Position numbers and translations under genes: made by a program
NCBI GenBank assembly: GCA_014138725.1
Contig: JACJID010000001.1
Coordinates: 868,001 to 932,000, forward strand
Source of the DNA: Kutzneria viridogrisea
GTDB taxonomy: Bacteria > Actinomycetota > Actinomycetes > Mycobacteriales > Pseudonocardiaceae
Direction of reading: 5' to 3'
DNA: 64,000 nt
In this document: positions 21,128-43,712 of the stretch, in pieces
Layout of the letters: each line of letters starts with the position of its first letter
Numbering within the stretch: position 1 is the stretch's first letter
Notes under the pieces: generated by a model
Seen by the model: only the letters and a program-made list of their open reading frames with translations
Databases searched by the model: none
Told to the model about the DNA's origin: nothing

Positions 21128-21676
21128 GTGACGAACGATTCGGGGGATCGGGCGGAGCTGCTTGCCGGGCTGAACGTCTTCGTCGGCGGGCCGATCCAGC
21201 ACGCCATTCTCGAGGACAGCTTCTTCGTCCCGTTGCAGGAGGCGATCGAGGCGGCGATCGGCACCGTGCGCGACCACGGCGGCGAGGTCTTCTCGGCGCA
21301 CGTCGTGGAGAAGTTCGGCCTGGACACCGCCGCCTACACGCCCAAGGACGTCTCGGCCCGGGACTTCCAGTGGATGAAGGCCTGTGACGTGTTCGTCCCG
21401 GTGCTGCCCGCGCTGCCGGACGGGACGCTGTACCGCACCGACGGCACGCACATCGAGCTGGGCTGGGCCACCGCGCTGGAGCGGCCCGTCGTGCTGATCA
21501 CCGAGCAGCCGTTCGCGGAGGGGGCCAGCCACCTGCTCAAGGGCCTGAACTGGGTGGGCCGCGTGCAGGCGATCGACTTCACCACCTTCACCGAGAACCC
21601 GGCCCTGCTGGTGGACGCCGTGCTCGCCGCGGTTCGCCCGCAGCGGGAGGCCGCCGAGGTCGGCATGACCGCCTGA
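21128..21676 (+). CDS. Nucleoside 2-deoxyribosyltransferase-like N-glycosidase
   Basis: A 182-residue protein of the nucleoside deoxyribosyltransferase fold. It starts with NVFVGGPIQ, has the substrate loop KDVSARDFQWMKACDVFV, and the catalytic Glu in THIELGWA (consensus GT-x-x-E-LG-x-A). Members transfer deoxyribose between bases or, as in BlsM and MilB of nucleoside antibiotic pathways, hydrolyse CMP-type nucleotides to the free base. The GTG at 21128 has AGGAGG 7 bp upstream. First gene of the operon; it suggests that a nucleoside or nucleotide is a precursor. Confidence 0.8.
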   Translation: MTNDSGDRAELLAGLNVFVGGPIQHAILEDSFFVPLQEAIEAAIGTVRDHGGEVFSAHVVEKFGLDTAAYTPKDVSARDFQWMKACDVFVPVLPALPDGTLYRTDGTHIELGWATALERPVVLITEQPFAEGASHLLKGLNWVGRVQAIDFTTFTENPALLVDAVLAAVRPQREAAEVGMTA

Positions 21677-21725
21677 TCGACAGGAAGAACCGCCGTTCCC
21701 GCTGTCCGACTCAGATGGAGCACCC

Positions 21726-22589
21726 ATGCCCGACTTCCGCATCCTGGGCCTGCGGACGACAAACCCGGTGATCGTCGGCTCCGGTCTGCTGACCGACCAG
21801 ACGAGCAACATCCGCAAACTGCTGGCGAGGGGGGCCGGCGCCGTCATCACCAAGACGATCCACCCGAGTCCCCCGCAGGGGCTGGACGAGCGGATCGTGC
21901 GGCTGCCCGTCGGCATGCTCAACAGCACCACCTATTCCAAGCGCCCGGTGGGCTACTGGCTGAAGATGCTGCGTGCCTGCGCCGAGGAGGGCCTGCCGGT
22001 CATCGCCAACGTGCACGCCGACACACCGGCGGAGCTGGGCGCGCTCGCCCACGAGGTCGAGGCCACCGGCTGCCCCGCGCTGGAGCTCGGCATCTCCTGC
22101 ATCAACGAGGAGGCCGGCGCGGACGAGGACGCCGACCGGGTGTACGCCTACACCGTCGAGACCCGCCGCCGGGTGGCCATCCCGTTCTCGGTCAAGCTGG
22201 CCGTGGGCGAAGGCCTGGCCGGCCGGGTGCACGCCGCGGTCGAGGCGGGCGCGGACGCCATCACCCTCAGCGACACCATCCCGGGCGCGGCGGTCTCCCC
22301 GCGGACCGGGGAACTGGAACTGGACGGAGTGTTCGGCTACTCGGGGCCGGGCATCAAACCACTGGTGCTCGCGGCCATCTGGGGACTGCGCAAGCGCGGC
22401 TTCGACCTGCCCATCATGGGCAGCGGCGGCGTGGCCTCCGGCCGCGACGTGGTGGACTACCTCCAGGCCGGCGCCGACGTCGTGCAGGTGTACACCGCAC
22501 TGCACACCGACATGTACGCCACGCTGGACGCCATCGTCACCGGGGCCGAGCACATCCTGGCCGACACCGGGGTACGGGTGAGCAGCTGA
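21726..22589 (+). CDS. Dihydroorotate dehydrogenase-family flavoprotein
   Basis: A 287-residue TIM-barrel enzyme. It has the FMN phosphate-binding stretch MGSGGVASGRDVVDYLQAGA near residues 225-250, a KTI segment near residue 44, and a Cys in GISCINE near the position of the class 1 catalytic base. It resembles PyrD and dihydropyrimidine dehydrogenase barrel domains, but its setting in a biosynthetic operon argues for a redox step on a pyrimidine-like or other ring. Its stop overlaps the next start (TGATG). Confidence 0.8.
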   Translation: MPDFRILGLRTTNPVIVGSGLLTDQTSNIRKLLARGAGAVITKTIHPSPPQGLDERIVRLPVGMLNSTTYSKRPVGYWLKMLRACAEEGLPVIANVHADTPAELGALAHEVEATGCPALELGISCINEEAGADEDADRVYAYTVETRRRVAIPFSVKLAVGEGLAGRVHAAVEAGADAITLSDTIPGAAVSPRTGELELDGVFGYSGPGIKPLVLAAIWGLRKRGFDLPIMGSGGVASGRDVVDYLQAGADVVQVYTALHTDMYATLDAIVTGAEHILADTGVRVSS

Positions 22590-23368
22590 TGCCGCGCGAA
22601 CTCGCCGACCTGACCAGCGCCCAGGTCCTCGACCGGGTGGCGGGCGGCACCGTCGTCTGGCCGCTGGGCGCCACCGAGCAGCACGGCCCGCACCTGCCGC
22701 TATCGGTGGACTCGGTGCTCGCCGAGGCCTTCGCAGGGCCGATCGCCGAGGCCTTCCAAGGGTTCACCCTCCCGGTGCAGGCGATCGCCGCCCGGTCGTT
22801 GCCGCAGAGCGGCGGCGGGCTGTCCTTCCCCGGCACGGTGCACGTGGGCGGGGACACTCTGGTCCGGTTCCTGCGCGAGGCACTGCAATCGCTGTTCCGC
22901 CTGCCGCTGGGCCGGCTGGTCGTGGTCAACGGCCACTTCGAGAACGAGCCGTTCCTGTTCGAGGCGCTCGACCAGGTGCGCCAGGAGGGCCTGATCGGCG
23001 ACCGGGAGGTCTTCGCCTTCAGCTGGTGGAGCCTGGTGCAGGACTCCTGGCTGGCCACCGAGACCACGGACTTCCCCGGGTGGCACGCCGAGCACGCGGG
23101 GGTCACCGAGACCAGCCTGATGCTGCACCTGCGGCCGGACCTGGTGACCGACCTGCGACCCGATCACGACCGCCCGCCACGGGCCGGCGTGTACCTGCAC
23201 CCGGTGGACGTGGACCAGATCACCGAGCAGGGAGTCCTGTCCTCGACCTCCGGATCGAGTGCCGAGTTGGGCGAGAAGCTGTTCAGCCACGTCATCGAGC
23301 AGGCGGTGGCCATGATCCGCGACGGTGCCGGGCTGCTGTCGCGCAAGGCCGGGAAGAAGGAACAATGA
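22589..23368 (+). CDS. Creatininase-family amidohydrolase
   Basis: A 259-residue metal-dependent hydrolase. Metal ligands are visible in ATEQHGPHLPLSVD (Glu, His, Asp), VNGHFEN (His) and HAGVTETSLM (Glu). The family includes creatininase, MftE of mycofactocin synthesis and ArfB, which deformylates a formamidopyrimidine in F420/riboflavin pathways. Here it probably opens a cyclic amide or removes an acyl group from a nitrogen heterocycle. It is coupled to both neighbours by 1- and 4-bp overlaps. Confidence 0.85.
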   Translation: MPRELADLTSAQVLDRVAGGTVVWPLGATEQHGPHLPLSVDSVLAEAFAGPIAEAFQGFTLPVQAIAARSLPQSGGGLSFPGTVHVGGDTLVRFLREALQSLFRLPLGRLVVVNGHFENEPFLFEALDQVRQEGLIGDREVFAFSWWSLVQDSWLATETTDFPGWHAEHAGVTETSLMLHLRPDLVTDLRPDHDRPPRAGVYLHPVDVDQITEQGVLSSTSGSSAELGEKLFSHVIEQAVAMIRDGAGLLSRKAGKKEQ

Positions 23369-24678
23369 CACGCAAATTCCACCTCGCCTTCATCTTCGAC
23401 TTCGCCGCCGACGAGTGGCAGGGACCGTTCGGCAACGGCGGTTCCCCCTGGAACGGCAAGTTCCACACCGAGGTGGCGGTGGCACTGGAACGGGCCTGCT
23501 TCGACTTCGTCGTGGTCGAGGACAAGCTCATGGTGCCCGAGAGCTACGGCGGCTCCAGGCAGGCCGCGCTCAGCCAGGCCATGATCGTGCCCAAGCACGA
23601 CCCGGTGCCGCTGGCGGTGTCCATGGGACTGGCGACCTCGCGGCTGGGTATCGTCACCACACTGTCCACACTGGCCTATCCACCGTTCATGACCGCCCGC
23701 CTCGCCTCCACCATGGACAACATGCTCGGCGGCCGGTACGGCTGGAACATCGTCACCAGCGCCGAGGACCTGGCCGCGCAGAACTTCGGGATGAAGAAGC
23801 TGCCGCCGCGCCAGGAGCGCTACGAGCGGGCCGAGGAGTACGTCCAGGTCGTCCGGGCGCTGTTCGAGTCCTGGGACAAGGACGCGGTCGTGCTCGACCG
23901 GGACAACGGGATCTACGCCGACCACACCAAGGTCCGCCCCATCAACTTCGAGGGCAAGTACTTCAGCGTGCGAGGCCCACTGAACACCGTGCCCTCCCCG
24001 CAGCACCGACCCGCGTTCGTCCAGGCCGGCGCCTCCCCGCAGGGACGGGACTTCGCCGCCCGCAACGCCGACTCCATCATCGCCATCGCCAACGGCGTGC
24101 AGAGCATGAAGGACTTCCGCGACGACATCCGGCTGCGCGCCGAGAAGGCGGACCGGGACCCCGACGAGATCAAGGTGCTGTTCTGCGTTACCCCCACGCT
24201 GGGCGACACCGAGCGCGACGCACAGGACAAGCAGCAGCGGATGGTGTCCTCGACCAGGTTCGTCAAGGACATCCTCGCCCAGATGTCGGCCCTCACCGAG
24301 ATCGACTTCGCCCAGTTCGACGTGGACAAGCCGCTGCCGCACCGGCTGGAGACCAACGGGGAGAAGGGCACGCTGGACAAGTTCCAGCAGTGGGGCAGCG
24401 GGAAGACCCTGCGCGAACTGGTGATCGACGGTGCGGGCGGATTGGTGTCCTCGGTGCCCCTGGTCGGCACCCCCGACCAGGTCGCCGAGCGGATGGGCGA
24501 GGTGATGGAGCAGGTTGGCGGGGACGGGTTCATGCTCACCACCCCGTTGCTGCGGATGAACCGCCGCTACATCGCCGAGGTCACCGACGGACTGGTCCCC
24601 GCGCTCCAGCGCCGCGGCCTGACCCGGGCGGCCTACACGGCGGGCCACACGCTGCGGGAGAACCTGCTGGAGTTCTGA
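23365..24678 (+). CDS. Flavin-dependent monooxygenase, LLM class (NtaA/SnaA/DszA type)
   Basis: A 437-residue bacterial luciferase-like protein. Hallmarks are the opening strand KFHLAFIFDF, ARLASTMDNMLGGRYGWNIV and the FMN loop FVQAGASPQGRDFAARNAD. Members of this branch oxidise nitrogen or sulfur compounds with reduced FMN from a separate reductase, which is not encoded here. It could hydroxylate nitrogen or cleave a ring in the pathway. The ATG overlaps the previous stop (ATGA). Confidence 0.85.
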   Translation: MTRKFHLAFIFDFAADEWQGPFGNGGSPWNGKFHTEVAVALERACFDFVVVEDKLMVPESYGGSRQAALSQAMIVPKHDPVPLAVSMGLATSRLGIVTTLSTLAYPPFMTARLASTMDNMLGGRYGWNIVTSAEDLAAQNFGMKKLPPRQERYERAEEYVQVVRALFESWDKDAVVLDRDNGIYADHTKVRPINFEGKYFSVRGPLNTVPSPQHRPAFVQAGASPQGRDFAARNADSIIAIANGVQSMKDFRDDIRLRAEKADRDPDEIKVLFCVTPTLGDTERDAQDKQQRMVSSTRFVKDILAQMSALTEIDFAQFDVDKPLPHRLETNGEKGTLDKFQQWGSGKTLRELVIDGAGGLVSSVPLVGTPDQVAERMGEVMEQVGGDGFMLTTPLLRMNRRYIAEVTDGLVPALQRRGLTRAAYTAGHTLRENLLEF

Positions 24679-24703
24679 CCCCGTGGGAATTGGAGAGGCA
24701 ACT

Positions 24704-26035
24704 GTGCGCAGACCCACCGTGGAACTCCTCGAACTGACCGGTGCCCAGCAGGGCATCTGGCAGGAACTGGCCGACCGGCCGCACAGCCCGGCGTTCAACT
24801 CCGCCGAATACGTGGAGCTGACCGGGGACCTGGACCTCGCCGCCTTCCTGCTCGCGGTGGACCAGGTCGTCGAGGAGGCGGAGGCCATGCGGGTGGCCTT
24901 CGTGCAGACCCCTGACGGGCCCCGGCAGAAGATCTGCTCACCCGAGGACCAACCGCTGGGGTTCGTCGACCTCAGTGGCTGCGCCGATCCGCACGCCGAG
25001 GCGCTGTCCCGGATGCGGGCCGATCTCGACCAGAAGGTGGACCTGATCAACGGCCCCCTGGCCAGTCAGTTGCTGTTCCGGCTCGGCGAGCAGCAGTTCA
25101 TCTGGTACCAGCGGGTGCACACCCTGCTGGTGGACGGGTTCAGCCTGTCCAAGATGACCAGCCGGGTCACCGATCGGTACGTCGCGCTGACCACCGGCGC
25201 CGAGGAGCGCGCCCCGGTGTTCCGGCCGCTGGGGGACCTGCTGGCCAGCGAGGCGGCGTACCGGTCCTCGGACCGCTTCACCGCCGACCGGACCTTCTGG
25301 ACCCAGCAACTGGCCGCGCAGCCCCGCCCGTTCTCCCTGTCCACCGCTTGGCCTTCCGTTGCCTCGGAGACCTTCCTGCGTGCCTCGGTGGTGCTCCCAC
25401 CCGCGCTGATGAGCCTGGTGCGACGGGCCGAACGGGCCCTCGGGGCCACCTGGCCGGTCCTGTTCACCAGCTGCGCTGCCGCGTATCTGAGTGCCGCTCG
25501 GGAAGCGGAGGCCGTGGTGCTCGGATTGTTCGCCACCGGGCGGTACGGCACCGACGCGGCCAACGTCCCGGCGATGGTCTCCAACGTGCTGCCGCTGCAC
25601 CTGGCCGTCCTCCGGACCTGGACCACCGAACGCTATGTGGCCCAGGTGCTGGAATCCATGGTCCGCGTACTCGGGCACCAGCGCTTCCGCCAGGAGGAGA
25701 TGCGGCACTGCCGGGAACCGGGGGAGGTGTCGGCACCGCTGTACGGACCGCTGGTCAACATCATGCCGTTCCCCCGGGAGTTCGAGTTCGCCGGGGTGCG
25801 CGGCCGGACGCACAACCTCAGCACCGGCCCGATCGACGATCTCATGCTGGCCGTGTGGGAGGTCCAGGACTCCTCCGGGGAGACCACCCTCGCGGTGAAC
25901 GTGGACACCAACCCCGAGCTGTACTCACAGAACGAGACCACTGGGCACGCCGAAGGGATCGCCGCGTTCCTGGAGGCGTTCGTCAGCGCCGACTCCTCGG
26001 CCCGGCTGTCCGATGTCCTGGGAATGGTGGTGTGA
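24704..26035 (+). CDS. Stand-alone NRPS condensation-domain protein
   Basis: A 443-residue lone C domain. The catalytic motif HHxxxDG appears as V-H-T-L-L-V-D-G with His139 and Asp144, so the second, catalytic His is kept. Other C-domain landmarks are LTGAQQGIWQ at the start and MVSNVLPLHL. It likely joins the salicyl thioester on the aryl carrier protein to a free amine or alcohol, because no other adenylation or carrier domain is present. GTG at 24704 is chosen over the upstream GTG at 24683 because GGAGAGG lies 5 bp before it. Overlaps the next gene (TGATG). Confidence 0.85.
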   Translation: MRRPTVELLELTGAQQGIWQELADRPHSPAFNSAEYVELTGDLDLAAFLLAVDQVVEEAEAMRVAFVQTPDGPRQKICSPEDQPLGFVDLSGCADPHAEALSRMRADLDQKVDLINGPLASQLLFRLGEQQFIWYQRVHTLLVDGFSLSKMTSRVTDRYVALTTGAEERAPVFRPLGDLLASEAAYRSSDRFTADRTFWTQQLAAQPRPFSLSTAWPSVASETFLRASVVLPPALMSLVRRAERALGATWPVLFTSCAAAYLSAAREAEAVVLGLFATGRYGTDAANVPAMVSNVLPLHLAVLRTWTTERYVAQVLESMVRVLGHQRFRQEEMRHCREPGEVSAPLYGPLVNIMPFPREFEFAGVRGRTHNLSTGPIDDLMLAVWEVQDSSGETTLAVNVDTNPELYSQNETTGHAEGIAAFLEAFVSADSSARLSDVLGMVV

Positions 26036-27621
26036 TGGAAGGGTTCGTTTCCTGGCCCGCCGAACTCGCCGAGCGCTACCGCCACGAGGGCTACTGGCGG
26101 GGCGAGGTGTTGGGGGACATCCCCCGCCGCACGGCGCGAGGCCACGGTGATCGGACCGCCCTGGTGGACGAGCGCCGGTCGTGGACCTACGCCGAACTGG
26201 ACGACGAGGCCGACCGGATGGCGGCCGGTCTGCGGCAACTGGGCATCCAGGCGGGGGACCGCATCGTGGTGCAGCTGCCCAACGTCGGCGAATTCGTGGT
26301 GCTGTGCCTGGCCGCCTACCGGGCCGGGGTGATCCCCGTACTGGCCCTGCCCGGACACCGCCGCAGCGAGATCGCCTACCTGTGCGAGTTGTCCGGCGCG
26401 GTCGGCTACGTCATCCCCAGCCGGCACGGCGGCTTCGACTTCCTCGGCCTGGCAAGAGAAGTCGTAGCCGAGGTGCCGAGGGTCCGGCACGTGCTGGTAC
26501 TGGGCGATTCCGGCGAGTTCACGGCACTGGCCTCGGTGACCGCGGAACCCGAACCGCTGCCGGCACCGGATCCCGCCGGGGTCGCGATGCTGCTGCTGTC
26601 CGGCGGTACCACCGGGCTGCCCAAACTCATCCCGCGCACGCACGACGACTACGCCTACAACGTGCGGGCCAGCGCCGAACTGTGCGCCGTGGACGAGAAC
26701 ACCAGCTACCTCGTGGTGCTCCCGGTCTCGCACAACTTCGCCTGGGGCTGTCCCGGGGTGCTCGGTGTCCTGCGCTCGGGCGGCAAGGTGGTGCTCGCCG
26801 GCAACGGCAGCCCCGCCGAGGTCTTCCCGCTGGTGCAACGGGAACAGGTGTCCATGGTGGCCCTGGTGCCACCGCTGCTCGCGCTGTGGTCCGACGCCCG
26901 GTACCGGTTCGACGCGGACCTGTCCAGCCTGCGGCTGCTCCAGGTCGGCGGGTCCAAACTGGCCGAACCGCAGGCCAGGGAGGCACTGGGGACCTTCGGG
27001 TGCACCCTGCAGCAGGTGTTCGGCATGGCCGAGGGGCTGCTCAACTTCACCCACCTCGACGATCCCGAGGACGTCGTGGTCACCACCCAGGGCAGGCCGC
27101 TGTCGCCGGCCGATGAGGTGCTGGTGGCCGACCAGGACCGGAGCGGCCGCGGCGAACTGCTCACCCGTGGCCCGTACACCCTGCGCGGCTACTACCGCGC
27201 CGCCGAGCACAACCGCTTCGCCTTCACCCCGGAGGGCTACTACCGGACCGGTGACCTGGTCCGGCTGACCGCCGAGGGCAACCTCGTGGTGGAGGGCCGG
27301 ATCAAGGATCAGATCAACCGGGGCGGGGAGAAGATCGCCGCGGCGGAGATCGAGGGGCATCTCGCCGAGCACCCGTCGATCCAGGAGGCCGCGGTCGTCG
27401 GTGCGGCCGATCCCGTGCTCGGCGAGACGATCTGCGCCTTCGTGCGGGTCAGTGGACCCGCGCCCAGCCTGGCCGAGATCAGAAGGTTCGTGCAGGCCCG
27501 CGGAGTGGCCGCGTACAAGGCGCCGGACAGCGTCGAAGTCGTGGACTCCTGGCCGCTGACCAGCGTGGGGAAGATCGACAAGAAGGCGCTCGCCCGCAGC
27601 CTGGCCGAACGCGGCCGCTGA
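26035..27621 (+). CDS. Salicylate-AMP ligase (DhbE/EntE/MbtA-type aryl acid adenylation enzyme)
   Basis: A 528-residue adenylation enzyme of the aryl-acid group. It carries the ATP loop LLLSGGTTGLPKLIPRTH (187-204), the core motif YYRTGD and the C-terminal Lys in GKIDKK. The aryl-binding segment SHNFAWGCPG gives Asn234 and Cys239 at the places of Asn235 and Ser240 of DhbE. Cys at the latter position is typical of salicylate rather than 2,3-dihydroxybenzoate enzymes (for example YbtE and MbtA). It should activate salicylate and load the carrier domain of the next gene's product. Confidence 0.9.
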   Translation: MEGFVSWPAELAERYRHEGYWRGEVLGDIPRRTARGHGDRTALVDERRSWTYAELDDEADRMAAGLRQLGIQAGDRIVVQLPNVGEFVVLCLAAYRAGVIPVLALPGHRRSEIAYLCELSGAVGYVIPSRHGGFDFLGLAREVVAEVPRVRHVLVLGDSGEFTALASVTAEPEPLPAPDPAGVAMLLLSGGTTGLPKLIPRTHDDYAYNVRASAELCAVDENTSYLVVLPVSHNFAWGCPGVLGVLRSGGKVVLAGNGSPAEVFPLVQREQVSMVALVPPLLALWSDARYRFDADLSSLRLLQVGGSKLAEPQAREALGTFGCTLQQVFGMAEGLLNFTHLDDPEDVVVTTQGRPLSPADEVLVADQDRSGRGELLTRGPYTLRGYYRAAEHNRFAFTPEGYYRTGDLVRLTAEGNLVVEGRIKDQINRGGEKIAAAEIEGHLAEHPSIQEAAVVGAADPVLGETICAFVRVSGPAPSLAEIRRFVQARGVAAYKAPDSVEVVDSWPLTSVGKIDKKALARSLAERGR

Positions 27622-27651
27622 CCGCCCCCGTCAAGAAACCCGAGGAGGACC

Positions 27652-29187
27652 ATGTCCGTCCAGCGCTACCACGAAAGCGTCGTGCCCACCTCCAACGATC
27701 CGCTGCTCGTCATGGCGGCGCTGGCCCGGACGTTCCACGCCGAGGACCACATCGTCTACGAGAACACCAGTGGGTACACCTTCGCCCTGGGGCGCCTCGC
27801 GGAGGTCACCGTCGATCGGGACTGCGTGTTGGTGCGGCACAACGGTGTGGAAAGCCGCGAACCGTGGACCGACAGCCCCTATCCGGTGCTGGACCGGGTG
27901 CTGGCCGGCCTGCCCGTGGCGGACTGGCGGGCCTACGGTGTCGCCGACTTCGAGCTGAGCTACGTGGGCGGGGACCTGCACGGCACCCTGGGCGACCGGC
28001 CGCTGCTGCGGCTGGTGGTCCCGGAGGCGGAGGTGTCGCTGCGGGCCGGGCAGGCCGCCGTACGGGCGGTGGACCGGGAACGGCTCGACCGGATCCTCGG
28101 GCTGCTGTCCGGTACGGTGCCCGACCAGGTCGTCGAGAGCATGCCCGTGGCCGTGGAGCAGGAAGGCGTCGCCGAGTACGCCAGGGCGGTCAACCGGGCG
28201 ATCCGGGACATCAACGAGGGCAAACTGCAGAAGGTGATCCTCTCCCGGGTCGTACCCGTGCCCGCGGCGGTGGACCTGGTGGCCACCTACGTCGAGGGGC
28301 GGCGCAACAACACCCCGGTCCGTTCCTTCCTGATCCGGCTGGCCGGGCAGGAGGCCGTGGGGTTCAGCCCGGAGATCGTCGTCGAGGTGGACGCGCAGCG
28401 GCAGGTCACGGCCCAACCACTGGCTGGAACCCGTGCGCTGCACCGGGATGCCGAGCAGAACGCCCGGGTGCGGGCGGAACTGCTCGCCGACAGCAAGGAG
28501 ATCTTCGAGCACGCCATCTCGGTCAAGGTCGCCCACGACGAACTGGCCGCCGTGTGCGGCGCACGGGCGCCGCTGATCGCCGAGTTCATGGCAGTCAAGG
28601 AACGCGGCAGCGTGCAGCACCTCGGCTCGGAGGTCCGCGCCGAACTGCCGGAGGACAAGGGGGTGTGGGACGCGTTCGCCGCGCTGTTCCCCGCCGTGAC
28701 CGTCTCCGGTGTCCCCAAGGACGCCGCCTACCGGTGCATCCGTGAGTACGAGTCAGGTCCCCGGGGCTGGTACGGCGGGGCCGTGCTCGCGGTCGGCCAG
28801 GACGGGTCGCTGGACGCGGCCCTGGTGCTGCGGACGGTGTTCCGGGCGAACGACCGGACCTGGCTGTGTGCCGGCGCCGGGATCGTCGCGCAGTCCACGG
28901 CCGCGCGGGAGGTCCAGGAGACCAGCGAGAAGCTGCGCAGCGTTGCCCTGCACGTGGTTCCCGCCGTCTCCGACGACCGGCTGGACATGCGCCGCGCCAT
29001 CGCCGACCACCTCGGCGTGGACCCCGGCGAGGTCGGCGACCACGAGGACCTGATGATGCGCGGCCTGTCGTCGCTGGCCGTGATGACCCTGGCCAACAGT
29101 TGGAGCAGCAACGGATCCATCGTCCGCTACACCGACCTGCTGGAACGCCCGACCCTGGCCTACTGGTCCTCGCTGGTGAAGCGGTGA
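27652..29187 (+). CDS. Salicylate synthase fused to an aryl carrier protein
   Basis: A 511-residue fusion. Residues 1-430 are a chorismate-using MST-family enzyme closest to MbtI/Irp9/YbtS: GFSPEIVVEV, QPLAGTRAL, SKEIFEHAISVKVAHDEL and KERGSVQHLGS. These make salicylate from chorismate through isochorismate. Residues 440-511 form a carrier domain with RGLSSLAVM, in which Ser474 is the expected phosphopantetheine site, and the end ERPTLAYW resembles aryl carrier domains of EntB/VibB. No isochorismatase or separate carrier protein is present, so one protein makes and carries the starter acid. Last gene of the operon. Confidence 0.9.
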   Translation: MSVQRYHESVVPTSNDPLLVMAALARTFHAEDHIVYENTSGYTFALGRLAEVTVDRDCVLVRHNGVESREPWTDSPYPVLDRVLAGLPVADWRAYGVADFELSYVGGDLHGTLGDRPLLRLVVPEAEVSLRAGQAAVRAVDRERLDRILGLLSGTVPDQVVESMPVAVEQEGVAEYARAVNRAIRDINEGKLQKVILSRVVPVPAAVDLVATYVEGRRNNTPVRSFLIRLAGQEAVGFSPEIVVEVDAQRQVTAQPLAGTRALHRDAEQNARVRAELLADSKEIFEHAISVKVAHDELAAVCGARAPLIAEFMAVKERGSVQHLGSEVRAELPEDKGVWDAFAALFPAVTVSGVPKDAAYRCIREYESGPRGWYGGAVLAVGQDGSLDAALVLRTVFRANDRTWLCAGAGIVAQSTAAREVQETSEKLRSVALHVVPAVSDDRLDMRRAIADHLGVDPGEVGDHEDLMMRGLSSLAVMTLANSWSSNGSIVRYTDLLERPTLAYWSSLVKR

Positions 29188-31031: not shown

Positions 31032-31181
31032 GTCTTCCCCGCGCACGCGGGGATGGTCCCTGCGATCGACGGCGAATGCCCCCTGGATGTCGGTCTTCCC
31101 CGCGCACGCGGGGATGGTCCCCACATCGGGTTGTTGTTCGCCCCGATCCTGCGGTCTTCCCCGCGCACGCGGGGATGGTCC
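31032..31181 (+). CRISPR. CRISPR array 1: three 28-bp type I-E-like repeats, two 33-bp spacers
   Basis: Repeats at 31032-31059, 31093-31120 and 31154-31181 are identical. Each begins GTCTTCCCC, has the stem CCCCGC-GCAC-GCGGGG and ends GATGGTCC. The spacers (31060-31092, 31121-31153) are each 33 bp, giving a 61-bp period typical of type I-E. No cas gene occurs in the window. Confidence 0.95.
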
Positions 31182-35149: not shown

Positions 35150-37456
35150 CTAGCGCAGCCCCAGTTCGGTGTAGGCGAGCAGCGTCTCCAGCAGGCACAC
35201 CACCAGGAAACCGACGTTCGCCCCGCGCAGGACAACGGAGGCCTGGTACCTGGGCTGCGGGCTCGGGTACCAGGCCACACCGAACTCCGGTGCGCGTTCC
35301 AGCAGCCTTGCCCGGAGGAGGTCGTGCCGGAACTCGTACGCGCCACCGACCTGGTGCAGCACGCCCCGTCGATGGGCCTCGGCCAGAAAGCCCATGACGG
35401 ACAACGGCATCCGGTCGGTGAGCGCCAAATACAGTCTGGCCACGGTGAACCTGCCCCATGCCGAGGCCAGCAGGCCGTACCAGAGCATCGCGGCTCCCGT
35501 CACGCCCAGCGCCACGATCCAGCGCTGGGTGGTCATCCAGTCCCCACCCAGCCACACGTAGGTCATGATCACGGGCAGCAGCAGGAACAACGCGGATCGG
35601 GCCAGCGGATCACGTTGGTACGGCATCATGGCGCACCAACCGAACCAGGCCGCGGCACGATCGGTACGCAGCAGGACGCGCGGGGTGACGGTGACGGCGG
35701 CGTCTCCCGGTTCGCTGAGCAAGGTCAGCGCGACAGAGCCCAGACCGACCACGGCGGAGATCGCGAACCACGGCAGACCGCCGGTCAGGTAGGCGAACAG
35801 TCCGAGTCGGTCGGCGATGAACACCAGCAGGTAGTACCCGAGCCCGGTCGCGGTCACGGCCAGCAGCCTCCGCCCACGGCTGTGCGCCGATAGCCGCACG
35901 GGTGTCGCATCCTCGCTGGTGAGTGCCTTCCACGCGGTCAGGTACTGCACCACCACCATCACTGCCAGCGATGGCAACGGGGACACCTGCCGGACGAAGT
36001 CGGTGGTCGGGCCGAAGAAGTCCCCGAGCATGAGCGCGGCGAAGGTACCCGCGTAGGGAACGGCGAGCGCGATGCCGAGCACCCAGCGCGGTACCGCGTG
36101 CCACAACCGCCACCAGGCGATCTGCGTGCTCCCGGTGGCGTCGAGGTGGGTGGCGAGGAAGGCCAGCCAGCGCTTCACCTGGGGAGCCGATCCCTCGAAA
36201 CGGGCGTCCACGAACCCGTCCAGCAGCTGCGCCTTGACCTCCTCGGAGTTGGCGAACCGCTTCCGGTCGAGCAGTTCCTCCGGTGCGGCTTCGGTGTCGC
36301 TGTAGGCCACCCAGGCCAGGTACGCCATCAGCGGGGACTCCAGCACCCTGGTGAGCCGGTGCGGCTGCTTCCGACTGTTGGTCGGGCGCAGCTTCCCGAT
36401 CAGTAGGTCCCATTTCGTGCCACCGTCGCGGACCGGCGAGGTGGTGCGCGACAGGTACTCCGTCAGGTCGGCCAACGACAGGTGCTGCAACTCCACTGCG
36501 GCGGCACCCGACACCACCAGCCCACAGCCCTGGTACTCCGCGGTCCGGCTGGTCAACACCAGTTGCGGCAGCACGGATCTTGCCTTGTTGAGTTGGCGCA
36601 GGAACACCGGGCGTGCCGGTTTGGGCAGTTCGTCCAGCCCGTCGAACACCGGCAGTACCCGGCCCGCCAGCACCAGCTTCTCGGCGCGGGTCCGCCCGTC
36701 CGGCTCGACCGCACCGAGTTCGCCGCACCTGTCCACGAGTTCGTCGACCAGCCACCGTTGCAGGCCGCGCTCGGCGTTCCAGTTCGCCACCGGTACCACG
36801 ACAGCCGCCCGGTCATCGGGTGCCCCGCGGACGAACAACCAGGCCGCCACGGACTTTCCGGCACCGGCCGGGCCGAGCACCACGAGCCTGCCCGACGGCA
36901 CCCGCGTGAACACCTCGGACACGCCCTCGACCGTGCCGTCCAGATCCAGCGGACCCGACCCGCCCGTCGATCCGTGGATGTTCGCCCAGTGATCGCCGAG
37001 CCCCTCGGGTGCGGTGGCCAGCCGCACCGGCATCGTGCTTGTCCAGTCCACCAGTGAAAGCTCCTGGTTGGCGTGGCTCCGCTCCTGGTCGACCAGGAGC
37101 CGCAGCGCTGCGTTCAGCCGCGCTTGGGTGCCCGCCGCGTCCATCTTCCGGAACGCGCGCAACCGTGCGAAGGACTGCGCCAGCGCGAACCCGAAGCGCA
37201 CACACCCGGCACCGGCGGCGGCCACCGCGATGACAAGGGCGTCCGGGAACACCGTGGGTGCCGCAGTCCGCACCACGAGCGCGACAGCGAGCACGGCGGC
37301 CGAGCCGATCAGCCGGTCCCGGGCGGTGAACAGTCGCCCTTCGAGTTCGGCCTCTCGGTCGTGCAGCGTGAGGTGGTCGATCGTCCCCGCCATGATCGCG
37401 TGGCCCTCGACGTGCCCGCTGATCTCGTTGTGATACTTGGGTCTGTGTCTGGGCAC
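35150..37456 (-). CDS. Membrane NACHT-type STAND NTPase with N-terminal RHIM-like motif
   Basis: A 768-residue protein. The NACHT NTPase has Walker A GPAGAGKS (195-202) and Walker B LPVFDGLDEL (268-277), followed by a TSRTAEY sensor. Two hydrophobic segments lie at about 50-92 and some seven more helices in the C-terminal half (about 470-680). At the very N-terminus, NEISGHVEGHAIMAGTID (10-27) resembles the amyloid signalling motifs (N-x-I-S-G..V.AG) found in front of actinobacterial NLR-like proteins. The start GTG 37456 lacks a clear ribosome site; ATG at 37393 would remove most of the motif. A role in anti-phage or stress signalling is inference. Confidence 0.8.
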   Translation of the reverse strand: MPRHRPKYHNEISGHVEGHAIMAGTIDHLTLHDREAELEGRLFTARDRLIGSAAVLAVALVVRTAAPTVFPDALVIAVAAAGAGCVRFGFALAQSFARLRAFRKMDAAGTQARLNAALRLLVDQERSHANQELSLVDWTSTMPVRLATAPEGLGDHWANIHGSTGGSGPLDLDGTVEGVSEVFTRVPSGRLVVLGPAGAGKSVAAWLFVRGAPDDRAAVVVPVANWNAERGLQRWLVDELVDRCGELGAVEPDGRTRAEKLVLAGRVLPVFDGLDELPKPARPVFLRQLNKARSVLPQLVLTSRTAEYQGCGLVVSGAAAVELQHLSLADLTEYLSRTTSPVRDGGTKWDLLIGKLRPTNSRKQPHRLTRVLESPLMAYLAWVAYSDTEAAPEELLDRKRFANSEEVKAQLLDGFVDARFEGSAPQVKRWLAFLATHLDATGSTQIAWWRLWHAVPRWVLGIALAVPYAGTFAALMLGDFFGPTTDFVRQVSPLPSLAVMVVVQYLTAWKALTSEDATPVRLSAHSRGRRLLAVTATGLGYYLLVFIADRLGLFAYLTGGLPWFAISAVVGLGSVALTLLSEPGDAAVTVTPRVLLRTDRAAAWFGWCAMMPYQRDPLARSALFLLLPVIMTYVWLGGDWMTTQRWIVALGVTGAAMLWYGLLASAWGRFTVARLYLALTDRMPLSVMGFLAEAHRRGVLHQVGGAYEFRHDLLRARLLERAPEFGVAWYPSPQPRYQASVVLRGANVGFLVVCLLETLLAYTELGLR

Positions 37457-37533: not shown

Positions 37534-38742
37534 TCAACTCCTTGTGTCCTGCCGCCCTGCGGACCTCGTACCAGTGACGACCAGCGGAGCGAGCGCACCC
37601 GCACCGGCGAAGCACAAGCCGAGGATCAGCCAGCCGTACCCGCTGCCGAGGCACAGGACGGTGAGCAGACCAGGTGCAACGGCGGTGGCCAAACCCCGGC
37701 CGAGAGCGAAGAAGCCTTGGTACTGCCCATGTGCACCGTCGGGTGCGAGGGTGAAACTGAGGCCGAACGAACCTCCTGACGTCCAGAGTTCGCCGGCCGT
37801 CAGGAGGACGGCGAAGATCAGCAGGAGCGCAACGGCGTGCCACTGCGGCAGGGACCCGGTCGGGGCAACGACGCAGCAGGCCGCGAGCAGGGCCAGTCCG
37901 GCACAGCGGCAGAGCCGGGCAGCGGTCGGGTTGTCCTCGGCGCCCTTGCTGGCCCGCGCCTGCAGGAAGATCACCAGGACGGTGTTGACCACGACCAGCA
38001 CGGATACCAGTACCGGCGGCGCGGTCGTGTGGCCGGTGACCCAGAGCGGGACGGCGAACGAAAGCACCTGGGCGTGCAGCGAAAGCACCCCACAGATGAA
38101 CGTGATCACCACGTAGCGCCCGTCCCTGAACACCCTGGTCGGGCGGCTACGCGGAGTGGTGGAACCAGCTGGGGTCTCCAGAGGCAAGCCGCGTAACGGC
38201 GCGGCCGCGGCGAGGTAGGTGGTGGCGGTCACCAGCAGCAGCACAGTGTAGGCAGCGGTCGTGTCTGCTTGGATGGCCAGTGCGGCGAGGCCGGCCCCGA
38301 TGGTGACCGCAATGCTGGCGACGATGCGCAGATATACCCGGAACTGGACGCGTTCGCTACCTTCACCGACCGTGGCGACGAGGGCGCCACGCGCCGCTGT
38401 GCTGCCTTGTTCGGCAAGCAGGAAAACCGTGATGGCGCAGAAGAAAAAGGGGAACGATCGGACCAGTGCCAGACCGGCGAGAACGATGAACTGGGTCGTC
38501 AGCAGCATGGTGTAGAGCCGCCGGGGACCGAAGCGGTCGGCGAGGACGCCCAATGGCAGCGATCCGGCGAAAGTCACCAGCCCAGCCACCGTCAAGCCGA
38601 GTGCGACCTCATGCACGCCGAAGCCGGCCACACGAGTGAAGTACAGCGTGCTGGTCGGCAGGTACAGCCCGCTCCCGACGTTCTTGATCAGCCACGAGAC
38701 CACCAGCCAGCGTTTCGGCCCGGGTGGGGGCAGCAGTTTCAC
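37534..38742 (-). CDS. MFS exporter of the phosphonate operon
   Basis: A 402-residue, 12-helix major facilitator protein. It opens with LVVSWLIKNVGSGLYLP and has the loop-2/3 motif GVLADRFGPRRL typical of drug:H+ antiporters. The GTG start overlaps the stop of a 31-residue ORF, itself overlapping the upstream synthase gene, so translation is coupled. Phosphonate clusters often contain an MFS transporter thought to export the product, which fits here. Confidence 0.85.
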   Translation of the reverse strand: MKLLPPPGPKRWLVVSWLIKNVGSGLYLPTSTLYFTRVAGFGVHEVALGLTVAGLVTFAGSLPLGVLADRFGPRRLYTMLLTTQFIVLAGLALVRSFPFFFCAITVFLLAEQGSTAARGALVATVGEGSERVQFRVYLRIVASIAVTIGAGLAALAIQADTTAAYTVLLLVTATTYLAAAAPLRGLPLETPAGSTTPRSRPTRVFRDGRYVVITFICGVLSLHAQVLSFAVPLWVTGHTTAPPVLVSVLVVVNTVLVIFLQARASKGAEDNPTAARLCRCAGLALLAACCVVAPTGSLPQWHAVALLLIFAVLLTAGELWTSGGSFGLSFTLAPDGAHGQYQGFFALGRGLATAVAPGLLTVLCLGSGYGWLILGLCFAGAGALAPLVVTGTRSAGRQDTRS

Positions 38743-38834
38743 CGGGCTGGCCTCGCCAGGGCGTGCAGCCGGGTGTTGCGGTCTTCGGCCTCCGCGGGAT
38801 CGGGTGCGGTGAAGCGCACTTCGAGTTGGGTCAC
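38739..38834 (-). CDS. 31-residue overlapping small ORF in the phosphonate operon
   Basis: A GTG at 38834 overlaps the stop of the synthase gene (GTGA), and its own TGA overlaps the GTG of the MFS gene. The 31 residues are charged (VTQLEVRFTAPDPAEAEDRN, then an Arg/Ala-rich end) with no signal peptide. The double 4-bp overlap fits a real coupled gene or a bridge ORF for translational coupling, but may be chance. Confidence 0.45.
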   Translation of the reverse strand: MTQLEVRFTAPDPAEAEDRNTRLHALARPAR

Positions 38835-39979
38835 TGGGTGGCCTTGTGTGAGCTCGCTCCGGCCAGTGCTGTGCGGTAGATCTGTCGTAGCGCGGTTGCC
38901 GGTACCTCGCCGCGATGCTCGATCGCGTAGCCCCGAACCTGGGTCAGGCACTCGCCGAGCACTGACTCGTTCACCTCGACACCGTCCTGCTCCAGCTGGT
39001 GCTTGATCACCGCCCGGCCGGAGTGCTTGCCGACCACTAGCCGGCGGGTGCCGCCGACCAGCTCTGGCATGAACGGCTCGAAGGTGTTGGCGTCGCTGAG
39101 CATCCCCTTGGTGTGGATACCCGATTCGTGCGCGAACACGTTCATGCCGACTACCGGCTGCCACGGCTGGATCGGGGTGCCGCAGGCCTCTGCGACCAGC
39201 TGGGACAGCGCGACCAGCTTGGTGGTATCGATGCCCAGGTCTTTCCCGTGGAACTGGGACAGTGCCAACACCATCTGGGCCAGATCCGGCATTCCGGCTC
39301 GCTCACCGATCGCGTTGACCGTGACGTGGAAATACCGGGCACCGGCCTGCAGGCCGCCCAGCGTGTTGGCCACCGCGAGGCCAAAGTCGTTGTGGCAATG
39401 GGTCTGCGTGTCGATATCGGCTGCGGCGACCACGGCCGCGACCCGCTCGGCATAGCCGGCCGTGTCCAGGATGCCGATGGTGTCCGACAGCCGCAGCCGG
39501 TCCGCTCCCGCCTCAGCGACCTTGCCAGCGTACTCCTGCAGGAAGTTGAGGTTGGTGCGTCCGACGTCCTCGGCGCTGATCGAGACGAAGCAGCCCTGGT
39601 CCTTGGCGAACTTGACCATGTCCTGCGCGGTCGACAGCAGCCAGCCGCGGTCTTTTTTCACGCTCTTGTCGAGGTGGATGTTCGAGGTCGGCAAGCCAAG
39701 ATGAATAGCCTTGAAGCCGAGCGAGATGGTGTATTTCAGGTCGTCCAGTACGCCCCGGTTCCAGCCGATCAGGTTGACCTCGTCGCGGCGTTCCAACATC
39801 ACCTTCATGGCCTCGACATCCTGGCCGCCCATGGCCGGGATGCCTGCCTCGATCCAGCGCACGCCGGCGTCCACCAACGCGTTGAAGATGGCGATTTTGG
39901 TATCCCGAGAGAACGCTACTCCGGGCGCCTGCTCTCCGTCCCGGAGAGTGGTGTCCTCAAGGATAATGTCATCGCGCAT
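38831..39979 (-). CDS. Homocitrate/isopropylmalate synthase-like enzyme, probable 2-phosphonomethylmalate synthase
   Basis: A 382-residue DRE-TIM metallolyase. Motifs are LEDTTLRDGEQAPGVAFS (7-24), the metal pair HCHNDFGLA and HESGIHTKGM. It lacks the C-terminal leucine-regulatory domain of LeuA and is NifV-sized. Downstream of PEP mutase, as in the FR-900098 (FrbC) and pantaphos (HvrC) pathways, such an enzyme condenses phosphonopyruvate with acetyl-CoA. The role here is inferred from that pairing. ATG 39979 has GGAG 8 bp upstream. Homocitrate synthase in another pathway is the alternative. Confidence 0.85.
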   Translation of the reverse strand: MRDDIILEDTTLRDGEQAPGVAFSRDTKIAIFNALVDAGVRWIEAGIPAMGGQDVEAMKVMLERRDEVNLIGWNRGVLDDLKYTISLGFKAIHLGLPTSNIHLDKSVKKDRGWLLSTAQDMVKFAKDQGCFVSISAEDVGRTNLNFLQEYAGKVAEAGADRLRLSDTIGILDTAGYAERVAAVVAAADIDTQTHCHNDFGLAVANTLGGLQAGARYFHVTVNAIGERAGMPDLAQMVLALSQFHGKDLGIDTTKLVALSQLVAEACGTPIQPWQPVVGMNVFAHESGIHTKGMLSDANTFEPFMPELVGGTRRLVVGKHSGRAVIKHQLEQDGVEVNESVLGECLTQVRGYAIEHRGEVPATALRQIYRTALAGASSHKATQ

Positions 39980-40077
39980 GATCGTACTCCGATCTTCTTC
40001 TCGACAACGGCCAAAAAGTAGCTGTACCCGGCCAACGGGCGCCCAGAAACAGCTGTCACCCACTCATGCCGGATTGC

Positions 40078-40995
40078 TCAATTTCTCGTGCTCGCACTAG
40101 CGGGACCGATATGCAAGATGTGTTCGAGGCCGACGCAGCGGCGCTCCGCCTCGGCGGTGCGGCCGTGTCGCAGAATGTCCATGGACACGTCCTGCATCGC
40201 CTTTACCGCAGCGCGCAGCATGTGGTTCGCATAGATGATCACATTGAACCCGGCCGACTGAAGTTCCTTCGCGTGAATCGAGTTGTACGTCGTGGGCGCC
40301 GAGATCAGCACCACCGATGGGTGAATGCGGCGGAACTCGCGAGCGAACTCCAGTACCTCACCCGGGTTCGACTTGCGACTGTGAATCATGATGCCGTCCG
40401 CACCGGCCGCAACGTAGGCATCTGCCCTGGTCAGAGCGTCAGCCATGCCGAGGTCCAGGATCAGACTCTCGATCCGCGCAATGATCATGAACTCCGGTGT
40501 GCGCTGCGCGGCCTTACCTCGCCTGATCTTGGCGGTAAACTCGCCGACGTCCGTCGAGACCTGCTTGACGGTGGTGCCGAGCAGCGAGTTGCGCTTCAGG
40601 CCGGTCTTGTCCTCGATGATCACCGCGGAGACCCCAGCCAGCTCCATGTTCCGCACGAAGAACTCGAAATGCTCGACTTTCCCCCCGGTATCGCCGTCCA
40701 TAATCAGTGGTTTGGTGGTGACCGCGAAAATGTCGCGGATGTTCGCCAAGCGGGTCTGCGGATCGAGCACCTCGATATCTGGCAGCCCGTGAAGCGTCGA
40801 ATCGGTCAGCGAACTGGACCACAAGCCGTCGAACTCCTCGACGCCGAGACTGCTTCCAAGCGACACGCTCGCGTTTTCCGCAATAATCGCCGAGATCGGA
40901 TTGTGTGCCTCAATGATCCGAATGCACTGACGGGTGGCGACCAGCTCGCCAAGACGGGCGCGCCGAATATCGTTGGTCACAGAGTCGATGTGCAT
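40078..40995 (-). CDS. pepM: Phosphoenolpyruvate mutase (PepM)
   Basis: A 305-residue PEP mutase/isocitrate lyase-family barrel. The motif that separates true mutases from lyases, E-D-K-x-x-x-K-x-N-S, is complete at Glu128 to Ser137 (IIEDKTGLKRNS). The metal-binding Asp100 and Asp102 (MDGDTGG) are present. PEP mutase makes the C-P bond of nearly all natural phosphonates by converting PEP to phosphonopyruvate. ATG 40995, preceded by GGGGGAAAA, is preferred to TTG 41025. First gene of a minus-strand operon with the synthase and exporter; a symmetrical element lies upstream (41076-41115). Confidence 0.92.
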   Translation of the reverse strand: MHIDSVTNDIRRARLGELVATRQCIRIIEAHNPISAIIAENASVSLGSSLGVEEFDGLWSSSLTDSTLHGLPDIEVLDPQTRLANIRDIFAVTTKPLIMDGDTGGKVEHFEFFVRNMELAGVSAVIIEDKTGLKRNSLLGTTVKQVSTDVGEFTAKIRRGKAAQRTPEFMIIARIESLILDLGMADALTRADAYVAAGADGIMIHSRKSNPGEVLEFAREFRRIHPSVVLISAPTTYNSIHAKELQSAGFNVIIYANHMLRAAVKAMQDVSMDILRHGRTAEAERRCVGLEHILHIGPASASTRN

Positions 40996-41075
40996 GTAGA
41001 TTTTCCCCCATTCTGCTTGGGTCAAACCAGGCTGCCGCCTACGCAGATTGAGAAGTACCTAATCGCCCAATATAA

Positions 41076-41115
41076 CTTACGGTAACCAGACGACTCCGGT
41101 CTGTCAAGACGTAAG
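41076..41115. promoter_or_regulatory. Nested dyad upstream of pepM
   Basis: Outer arms CTTACG (41076-41081) and CGTAAG (41110-41115) enclose inner arms CAGAC (41087-41091) and GTCTG (41099-41103), with nearly the same centre (about 41095). It lies about 80-120 bp upstream of the pepM start, in a locally AT-richer stretch. It could be an operator or an mRNA hairpin. Confidence 0.5.
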
Positions 41116-43562: not shown

Positions 43563-43712
43563 GTCTTCCTCGCGTGAGCGGGGGTGGTCCCAGCGCGACA
43601 CCCTGGAGGACGCGAAAGCGATCGTCTTCCTCGCGTGAGCGGGGGTGGTCCGCCGCCCCACACGCCGACCGGCTCGCGCATCCAGTCTTCCCCGCGCACG
43701 CGGGGGCGGTCT
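43563..43712 (+). CRISPR. CRISPR array 2: three 28-bp repeats, two 33-bp spacers
   Basis: Repeats at 43563-43590, 43624-43651 and 43685-43712, spacers 43591-43623 and 43652-43684, period 61 bp. The first two repeats are identical (stem CCTCGC-GTGA-GCGGGG). The third differs (CCCCGC-GCAC-GCGGGG) and is closer to the array 1 repeat. All are type I-E-like. No cas gene in the window. Confidence 0.92.

Follow-up and report, generated by a model that had tools for sequence, protein, structure and literature searches.

A short pantaphos-lineage (hvr) operon of Kutzneria viridogrisea that may make and export 2-phosphonomethylmalate

Introduction

Can an intermediate of phosphonate biosynthesis itself be the product? 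The question is raised by an operon in a 64-kb stretch of the Kutzneria viridogrisea genome (contig JACJID010000001.1, positions 868,001 to 932,000; the whole stretch is called the window here), in which genes for a phosphoenolpyruvate (PEP) mutase, PepM, and a predicted 2-phosphonomethylmalate (2-Pmm) synthase are followed by a small open reading frame (mini-ORF) and a major facilitator superfamily (MFS) exporter gene. In the literature examined 2-Pmm appears as an intermediate only, on the routes to FR-900098, Pseudomonas fosfomycin, flavophos and pantaphos, a phosphonate harmful to plants. The reading proposed here, which has about an even chance of being right as a whole, is that this compact operon stems from the pantaphos (hvr) lineage, has kept the first two enzymes, has been joined to a different exporter, and makes and exports 2-Pmm. 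With the later pantaphos enzymes not found, the final compound may be a natural product that is new.

In such a pathway PepM would convert PEP to phosphonopyruvate, thereby forming the C-P bond, and the synthase would form 2-Pmm from phosphonopyruvate and acetyl-CoA, supplying the thermodynamic pull. The end product exported by the MFS protein would then be 2-Pmm or a simple derivative of it. The equilibrium of PEP mutase lies more than 500-fold on the side of PEP, and the following step must therefore drive the reaction (PMC12871164). 2-Pmm is present in lysates of E. coli cells that express the pair psfA and psfB, encoding PepM and 2-Pmm synthase (PMC12871164), and a PepM-synthase pair therefore suffices for making it.

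The two enzymes

PepM carries the complete mutase motif, EDKTGLKRNS, from which the preliminary description of this DNA had recognized a true PEP mutase. The family score bears this out: the protein reaches 380 bits against the NCBIfam equivalog model for PEP mutase (TIGR02320, cut-off 319.55), and scores far under the respective cut-offs of the phosphonopyruvate hydrolase and methylisocitrate lyase models. It also matches Pfam PF13714, which has nine matches in the genome, eight of them above the cut-off; among the eight PF13714 loci that were fetched, the mutase motif occurs only in the window's own gene. PepM is 65-67% identical to that of Amycolatopsis bartoniae and falls within a four-row hvr-type clade of a maximum-likelihood tree (support 95/97). 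As far as sequence can tell, it is almost certainly a true PEP mutase, and very probably an active one.

The synthase consists of HMGL-like and HCS_D2 Pfam domains, and neither the LeuA regulatory domain nor any further Pfam family is reported at E ≤ 0.001. Among the NCBIfam models NifV homocitrate synthase fits it best, yet the score (403 bits) is below the cut-off (462.9), so that family scores alone would mislead. The comparison set comprised 15 chosen relatives, to which the synthase is 59-77% identical, and five outgroup synthases, to which it is 29-42% identical: Mesorhizobium NifV (42%), a LeuA-like protein from the same genome (29%) and three other actinomycete synthases. Identity to the A. 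bartoniae homologue is 77-78%.

In the maximum-likelihood tree the synthase and its 15 relatives form one 16-row clade (support 100/99), inside which the branching order of the deep lineages is not settled. The window and A. bartoniae synthases pair at 92/95, just under the program's mark of 95. Some outgroup branches are very long, that of the LeuA-like row most of all, and the program warns of such branches. The named FrbC, Pantoea ananatis HvrC and PsfB stand outside the set of sequences in the tree, and none of the loci was identified as the frb cluster itself. A homocitrate, citramalate or LeuA identity is rejected for the synthase on the NifV cut-off, the identities and the tree placement.

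Across the clade 22 residues are invariant and found in none of the five outgroups. Several adjoin metal or catalytic motifs of the HMGL family: E8 by D9, H93 and G95, S133 and S135, S165, Q192 near H194/H196, and F217 and H218, whose active-site roles we take to be those known for that family. These residues suggest an altered substrate pocket. Membership of the phosphonate 2-Pmm synthase clade, and with it the predicted activity, can be assigned with high confidence. The preliminary description had already proposed an FrbC/HvrC-like enzyme without LeuA's regulatory domain, which the Pfam content and the 16-row clade sustain; it had named firm grouping with homocitrate or citramalate synthases among the outcomes that would speak against the proposal, and the tree gives no such grouping.

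Neither gene contains a stop or a frameshift. Each protein has a single private change at an otherwise invariant column (I94L in the synthase, D168E in PepM). The relatives show 0-5 such changes in the synthase and 0-3 in PepM, a range that includes the window's; A. bartoniae has none in either protein. The dN/dS against A. bartoniae is 0.25 for PepM and 0.21 for the synthase. The end branches measure 0.30 (window) and 0.29 (A. bartoniae) for PepM, and 0.25 and 0.16 for the synthase. Intactness of this kind speaks for a working pair, but when the other genes were lost cannot be read from it.

Relatives and their gene neighbourhoods

The closest kin found for both enzymes is A. bartoniae DSM 45807, in which they belong to a full hvr-type cluster; the comparison supports placing the predicted pair in the pantaphos lineage, closest to that cluster. 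Loci of the relatives were analysed through their record annotations and by tblastn, the queries coming from the window, A. bartoniae and Pantoea. PepM is encoded in the fetched stretch of 13 of the 15 other chosen loci of the synthase clade. Full hvr-type sets (PepM, HvrB-like, synthase, LeuC-like, LeuD-like, methyltransferase) are present in six: A. bartoniae (L053), two loci of a genus that is probably Streptomyces (g53; L066, L067), Pantoea agglomerans (L080) and Candidatus Stammera (L079, L086). Four loci combine PepM with an aconitase-type protein 25-27% identical to the LeuC-like query (L068, L069, L070, L081), and L068 and L069 also have HvrB-like and HvrF-like genes. Two have LeuCD-like genes with a dehydrogenase (L082, L083), and one is of the flavophos type (L084). 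Family scores, and homologues paired likewise elsewhere, exclude chance for both enzymes of the window.

The synthase is rare. At E ≤ 1e-120 it is found in 2/390 genomes of the family, the window's own and A. bartoniae; in genus g53 it is found in 9/392 genomes at E ≤ 1e-65, six of these within the clade, and in the class sample in 2/394 at E ≤ 1e-105, one being the window's own. The three samples overlap, and no second short set like that of the window was found in them. A plasmid search with the synthase gave 61 records, of which nine were fetched: one of seven from P. agglomerans, two of 22 from Ca. Stammera, two from Bradyrhizobium, one each from Streptomyces, Agrobacterium and Burkholderia, and a Mesorhizobium nifV plasmid as outgroup. 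A contig scan with two short PepM patterns returned three loci. Among viral contigs, 67 stretches fit a pattern of the synthase alignment and none was confirmed.

Two of the clade's synthases lie in fetched stretches without PepM, in L071 (9430-10554, genome G922) and L085 (8986-10143, Bradyrhizobium sp. 62B plasmid p1), and are 60% and 62% identical to that of the window; the latter adjoins a PhnF-type regulator and an ABC transporter. The records of the insect symbiont Ca. Stammera capleta make up 22 of the 61 plasmid matches. Its ~9-kb plasmids CP144779.1 (L079) and CP144792.1 (L086), the two that were checked, carry the full hvr-type set, consisting of PepM, LLM monooxygenase, 2-Pmm synthase, LeuC-like and LeuD-like proteins, methyltransferase and an HvrI-type MFS protein. 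A literature search found no paper joining "Stammera" with "phosphonate".

Later pathway steps

Genes for HvrB, HvrD/E and HvrF are absent from the operon. The whole window was searched with the monooxygenase, LeuC-like, LeuD-like, methyltransferase and GNAT proteins of A. bartoniae, Pantoea HvrI and flavin reductase (HvrK), and the presumed BsfC of Burkholderia stagnalis. Only the monooxygenase finds a match, 31% identical and ~13 kb from the operon; the LeuC-like and LeuD-like queries for the HvrD/E dehydratase match nothing in the window, nor does that for HvrF. No hvr relics were seen by eye in the three coding-strand frames of the 98-nt gap between pepM and the synthase gene.

In the rest of the genome there is no close LeuC-type paralogue of the hvr protein: the LeuC-like query matches a 507-aa LeuC-type frame (segments of 46% and 32% identity), a 986-aa aconitase-type frame and one weak hit. 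The best match to A. bartoniae HvrB in the genome is the same 31% monooxygenase (E 1.8e-52), which is not an orthologue. No HvrF orthologue is found either, the partial matches being 27-37% identical and the best 33% over about half of the query. The statement of the preliminary description that dehydratase and tailoring genes are missing consequently holds for the operon and, apart from this monooxygenase, for the window; for LeuC-like, HvrB-like and HvrF-like orthologues the absence extends to the genome.

The monooxygenase gene has an open reading frame, and the TGA counted by the search is, by eye, the stop of the upstream gene. It is part of a small gene set that also encodes a nucleoside deoxyribosyltransferase and dihydroorotate-dehydrogenase-family, AMP-binding and chorismate-binding proteins, perhaps for a peptide-like metabolite.

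Exporter and mini-ORF

The MFS protein probably exports the product of the operon, as its position there suggests. Homologues of Pantoea HvrI occur in each of the five other full hvr loci (phmmer, E 4e-54 to 3e-19) and in L068 (tblastn). The window MFS protein, by contrast, has no homologue at E ≤ 10 among the ORFs of at least 150 aa in the 15 synthase-clade loci (phmmer), and phmmer and tblastn detect no similarity between it and HvrI. The exporter was therefore not inherited from an hvr cluster of the kinds sampled; a difference from HvrI is to be expected if the cargo differs. Its best listed plasmid relatives are Streptomyces MFS proteins, 42% identical. The mini-ORF has no homologue at E ≤ 10 in the plasmid collection, the one collection searched; it is unproven as a real protein and possibly serves as a translational relay.

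Operon layout and genomic setting

All four ORFs of the operon lie on the minus strand (Table 1), at the place given in the preliminary description. The synthase stop and mini-ORF start overlap by four nucleotides, GTGA. An identical overlap joins the mini-ORF stop to the start of the MFS gene, and these three genes consequently look like a single translational unit. The promoter-like sequence is weak: the consensus promoter scan did not report it, and its -10 element matches at 3/6 positions only.

Table 1. Coordinates of the phosphonate operon and of other features of the window.
Feature	Position	Strand	Remarks
pepM	40078-40995	(-)	305 aa; ATG at 40995
Predicted 2-Pmm synthase gene, HvrC/FrbC-like	38831-39979	(-)	382 aa
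Mini-ORF	38739-38834	(-)	31 codons; GTG start
MFS exporter gene (predicted)	37534-38742	(-)	402 aa; GTG start; Pfam MFS_1 (PF07690)
Promoter-like TTGACA-17-TACCGT	41079-41107	(-)	-10 ~83 nt upstream of pepM start; read by eye
G-run ahead of pepM ATG	41005-41009		Read by eye
NACHT-type ATPase gene	35150-37456	(-)	768 aa; PF05729 24.8 bits, just under cut-off 26.7
Luciferase-like monooxygenase gene	23366-24679	Opposite to operon	Genome's best HvrB match
Small gene set	21128-29187		Includes the monooxygenase gene
CRISPR-like array	31032-31181		Three 28-nt repeats, 61-nt spacing
CRISPR-like array	43563-43712		Three 28-nt repeats, 61-nt spacing

The genome measures 10.25 Mb in 11 contigs and belongs, like that of A. 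bartoniae, to the family Pseudonocardiaceae. The G+C content is 60.5% for pepM and 64.4% for the synthase gene; 58 of the 64 1-kb bins of the window have at least 63.9% after rounding up, and a value as low as that of pepM recurs in one other bin (62-63 kb). This profile is weakly consistent with horizontal acquisition of the operon. A DNA search of 60 relatives gave no empty site, no genome having both flanks together among the matches listed. The NACHT-type gene directly downstream on the same strand is not counted into the operon, and its protein has no PADLOC match. Two short CRISPR-like arrays, oriented alike and separated by 12.5 kb, lie on the two sides of the operon; their leader-like sequences resemble each other (72% over 89 nt, including the first repeat).

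Comparison with known systems

The hvr clusters of A. bartoniae and P. agglomerans pAR1aD (L053 and L080; PepM 67% and 55%, synthase 77% and 65% identical to those of the window) have the first two chemical steps in common with the operon and also an MFS gene in the same stretch, but the operon lacks HvrB, HvrD/E and HvrF, and its MFS protein is not HvrI. Nine hvr-like types are described, all with HvrA-F orthologues except that type VIII has an aconitase in place of HvrDE, and with exporters that vary among types (PMC7858074). The FR-900098 (frb)-related synthase-dehydrogenase clusters of Agrobacterium (L083) and Bradyrhizobium (L082) likewise combine PepM and 2-Pmm synthase (62-63%), but add LeuCD-like genes and an isocitrate/isopropylmalate dehydrogenase, and their PepM belongs to another clade. 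The pair is also found in the psf (Pseudomonas fosfomycin) and bsf (Burkholderia flavophos) clusters, for example in B. stagnalis (L084); bsf has a transporter (EamA family) as well. Among the additional genes of these clusters is that for PsfC/BsfC, the enzyme that converts 2-Pmm (PMC12871164). NifV homocitrate synthase catalyses the same type of reaction as that predicted for the window synthase, but Mesorhizobium NifV lies outside the clade.

The preliminary description had suggested a new phosphonate cluster type. Within the sample examined a new short arrangement is supported. It is not called categorically new, since PMC12871164 reports nine families of 2-Pmm clusters, the products of several being unknown, and one of these could match the arrangement of the window.

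Alternative explanations

Release of 2-Pmm as such, which the absence of consuming enzymes suggests, is an evenly balanced proposition, and several observations weigh against it. All 13 PepM-linked relatives have a neighbouring candidate consumer of 2-Pmm. In 12 of them it belongs to the aconitase superfamily; the remaining one, L084, has a 250-aa "hypothetical protein". The operon has no such candidate, and a pathway ending at 2-Pmm would therefore be exceptional. To our knowledge no member of the tree is an assayed enzyme, so that the functional assignment rests on the match of the relatives' neighbourhoods to hvr and bsf, and with no PepM in the fetched stretches of L071 and L085, clade membership alone is no proof of phosphonate use. 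The dN/dS values blend the periods before and after gene loss. No LeuD-type subunit is found in the window, the rest of the genome not having been searched for it, and the L084 protein, presumed to be BsfC from its position in the bsf gene set (PMC12871164), matches nothing in window or genome in a search without a positive control. Finally, dropping any of psfA, psfB, psfC and bsfD of the flavophos pathway abolished the activity of lysates on an E. coli indicator (PMC12871164), and 2-Pmm is therefore probably non-inhibitory to that strain.

The appearance of 2-Pmm as an intermediate in all 13 PepM-linked relatives also lends some credit to completion of the pathway by unlinked enzymes, a housekeeping aconitase, LeuCD or isocitrate dehydrogenase, or a non-homologous oxidase encoded elsewhere in the genome, and the products of the 507-aa and 986-aa frames might act on 2-Pmm. 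We consider this rather unlikely, given that the genome searches gave no close paralogue for LeuC of hvr, HvrB or HvrF, and no match for BsfC. E. coli possesses aconitases and LeuCD. Lysates of cells expressing psfAB nonetheless contain 2-Pmm (PMC12871164). That the operon is the parked or decaying remnant of a full hvr-type cluster, stripped of monooxygenase, dehydratase, methyltransferase and exporter, would agree with its nearest kin being such a cluster, with PepM inside the hvr-type clade and with the rarity of the synthase; the one private change per protein where A. bartoniae has none, and the mild excess in the synthase end branch, count slightly for it. The intact reading frames, the lack of visible relics in the 98-nt gap, private changes within the relatives' range, near-equal PepM end branches and the presence of a different, translationally overlapping exporter make a remnant improbable. 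A supply of phosphonate to the gene set at ~21-29 kb, with its monooxygenase acting as HvrB, is very improbable: although this protein is the genome's best HvrB match and lies ~13 kb away, its 31% identity compares with 49-81% for seven other HvrB-like proteins in PepM-bearing loci, and it is encoded on the other strand among genes of the families named above. Slightly harder still to credit is the absence of any phosphonate pathway, in which case a protein of the isocitrate-lyase family would simply have a common homocitrate, citramalate or isopropylmalate synthase as its neighbour; the NifV model that ranks best for the synthase would fit, but the score under its cut-off, the tree, the PepM equivalog score, and identities of 42% to NifV and 29% to the LeuA-like protein against 59-77% within the phosphonate clade do not.

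Implications

2-Pmm is a phosphonic analogue of citrate, in which one CH2COOH is replaced by CH2PO3H2, a likeness evident from its structure; that it affects citrate metabolism or binds metals is conjecture. Tentatively, and at somewhat less than even confidence, no smaller pathway to a phosphonate natural product than this operon may so far exist: two enzymes and a dedicated exporter, derived from a trimmed hvr-type cluster with a swapped exporter, would release 2-Pmm as a finished compound and not as a precursor of pantaphos, FR-900098 or fosfomycin. Outside the cell it might serve as a citrate antimetabolite, directed at citrate uptake or aconitase, or might chelate metals. A set of two enzymes is easy to test. 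Surveys that sort 2-Pmm clusters by their downstream enzymes could miss such a set. If the export of 2-Pmm from this operon is true, an intermediate can itself be the product, and phosphonate pathways would have a lower size limit.

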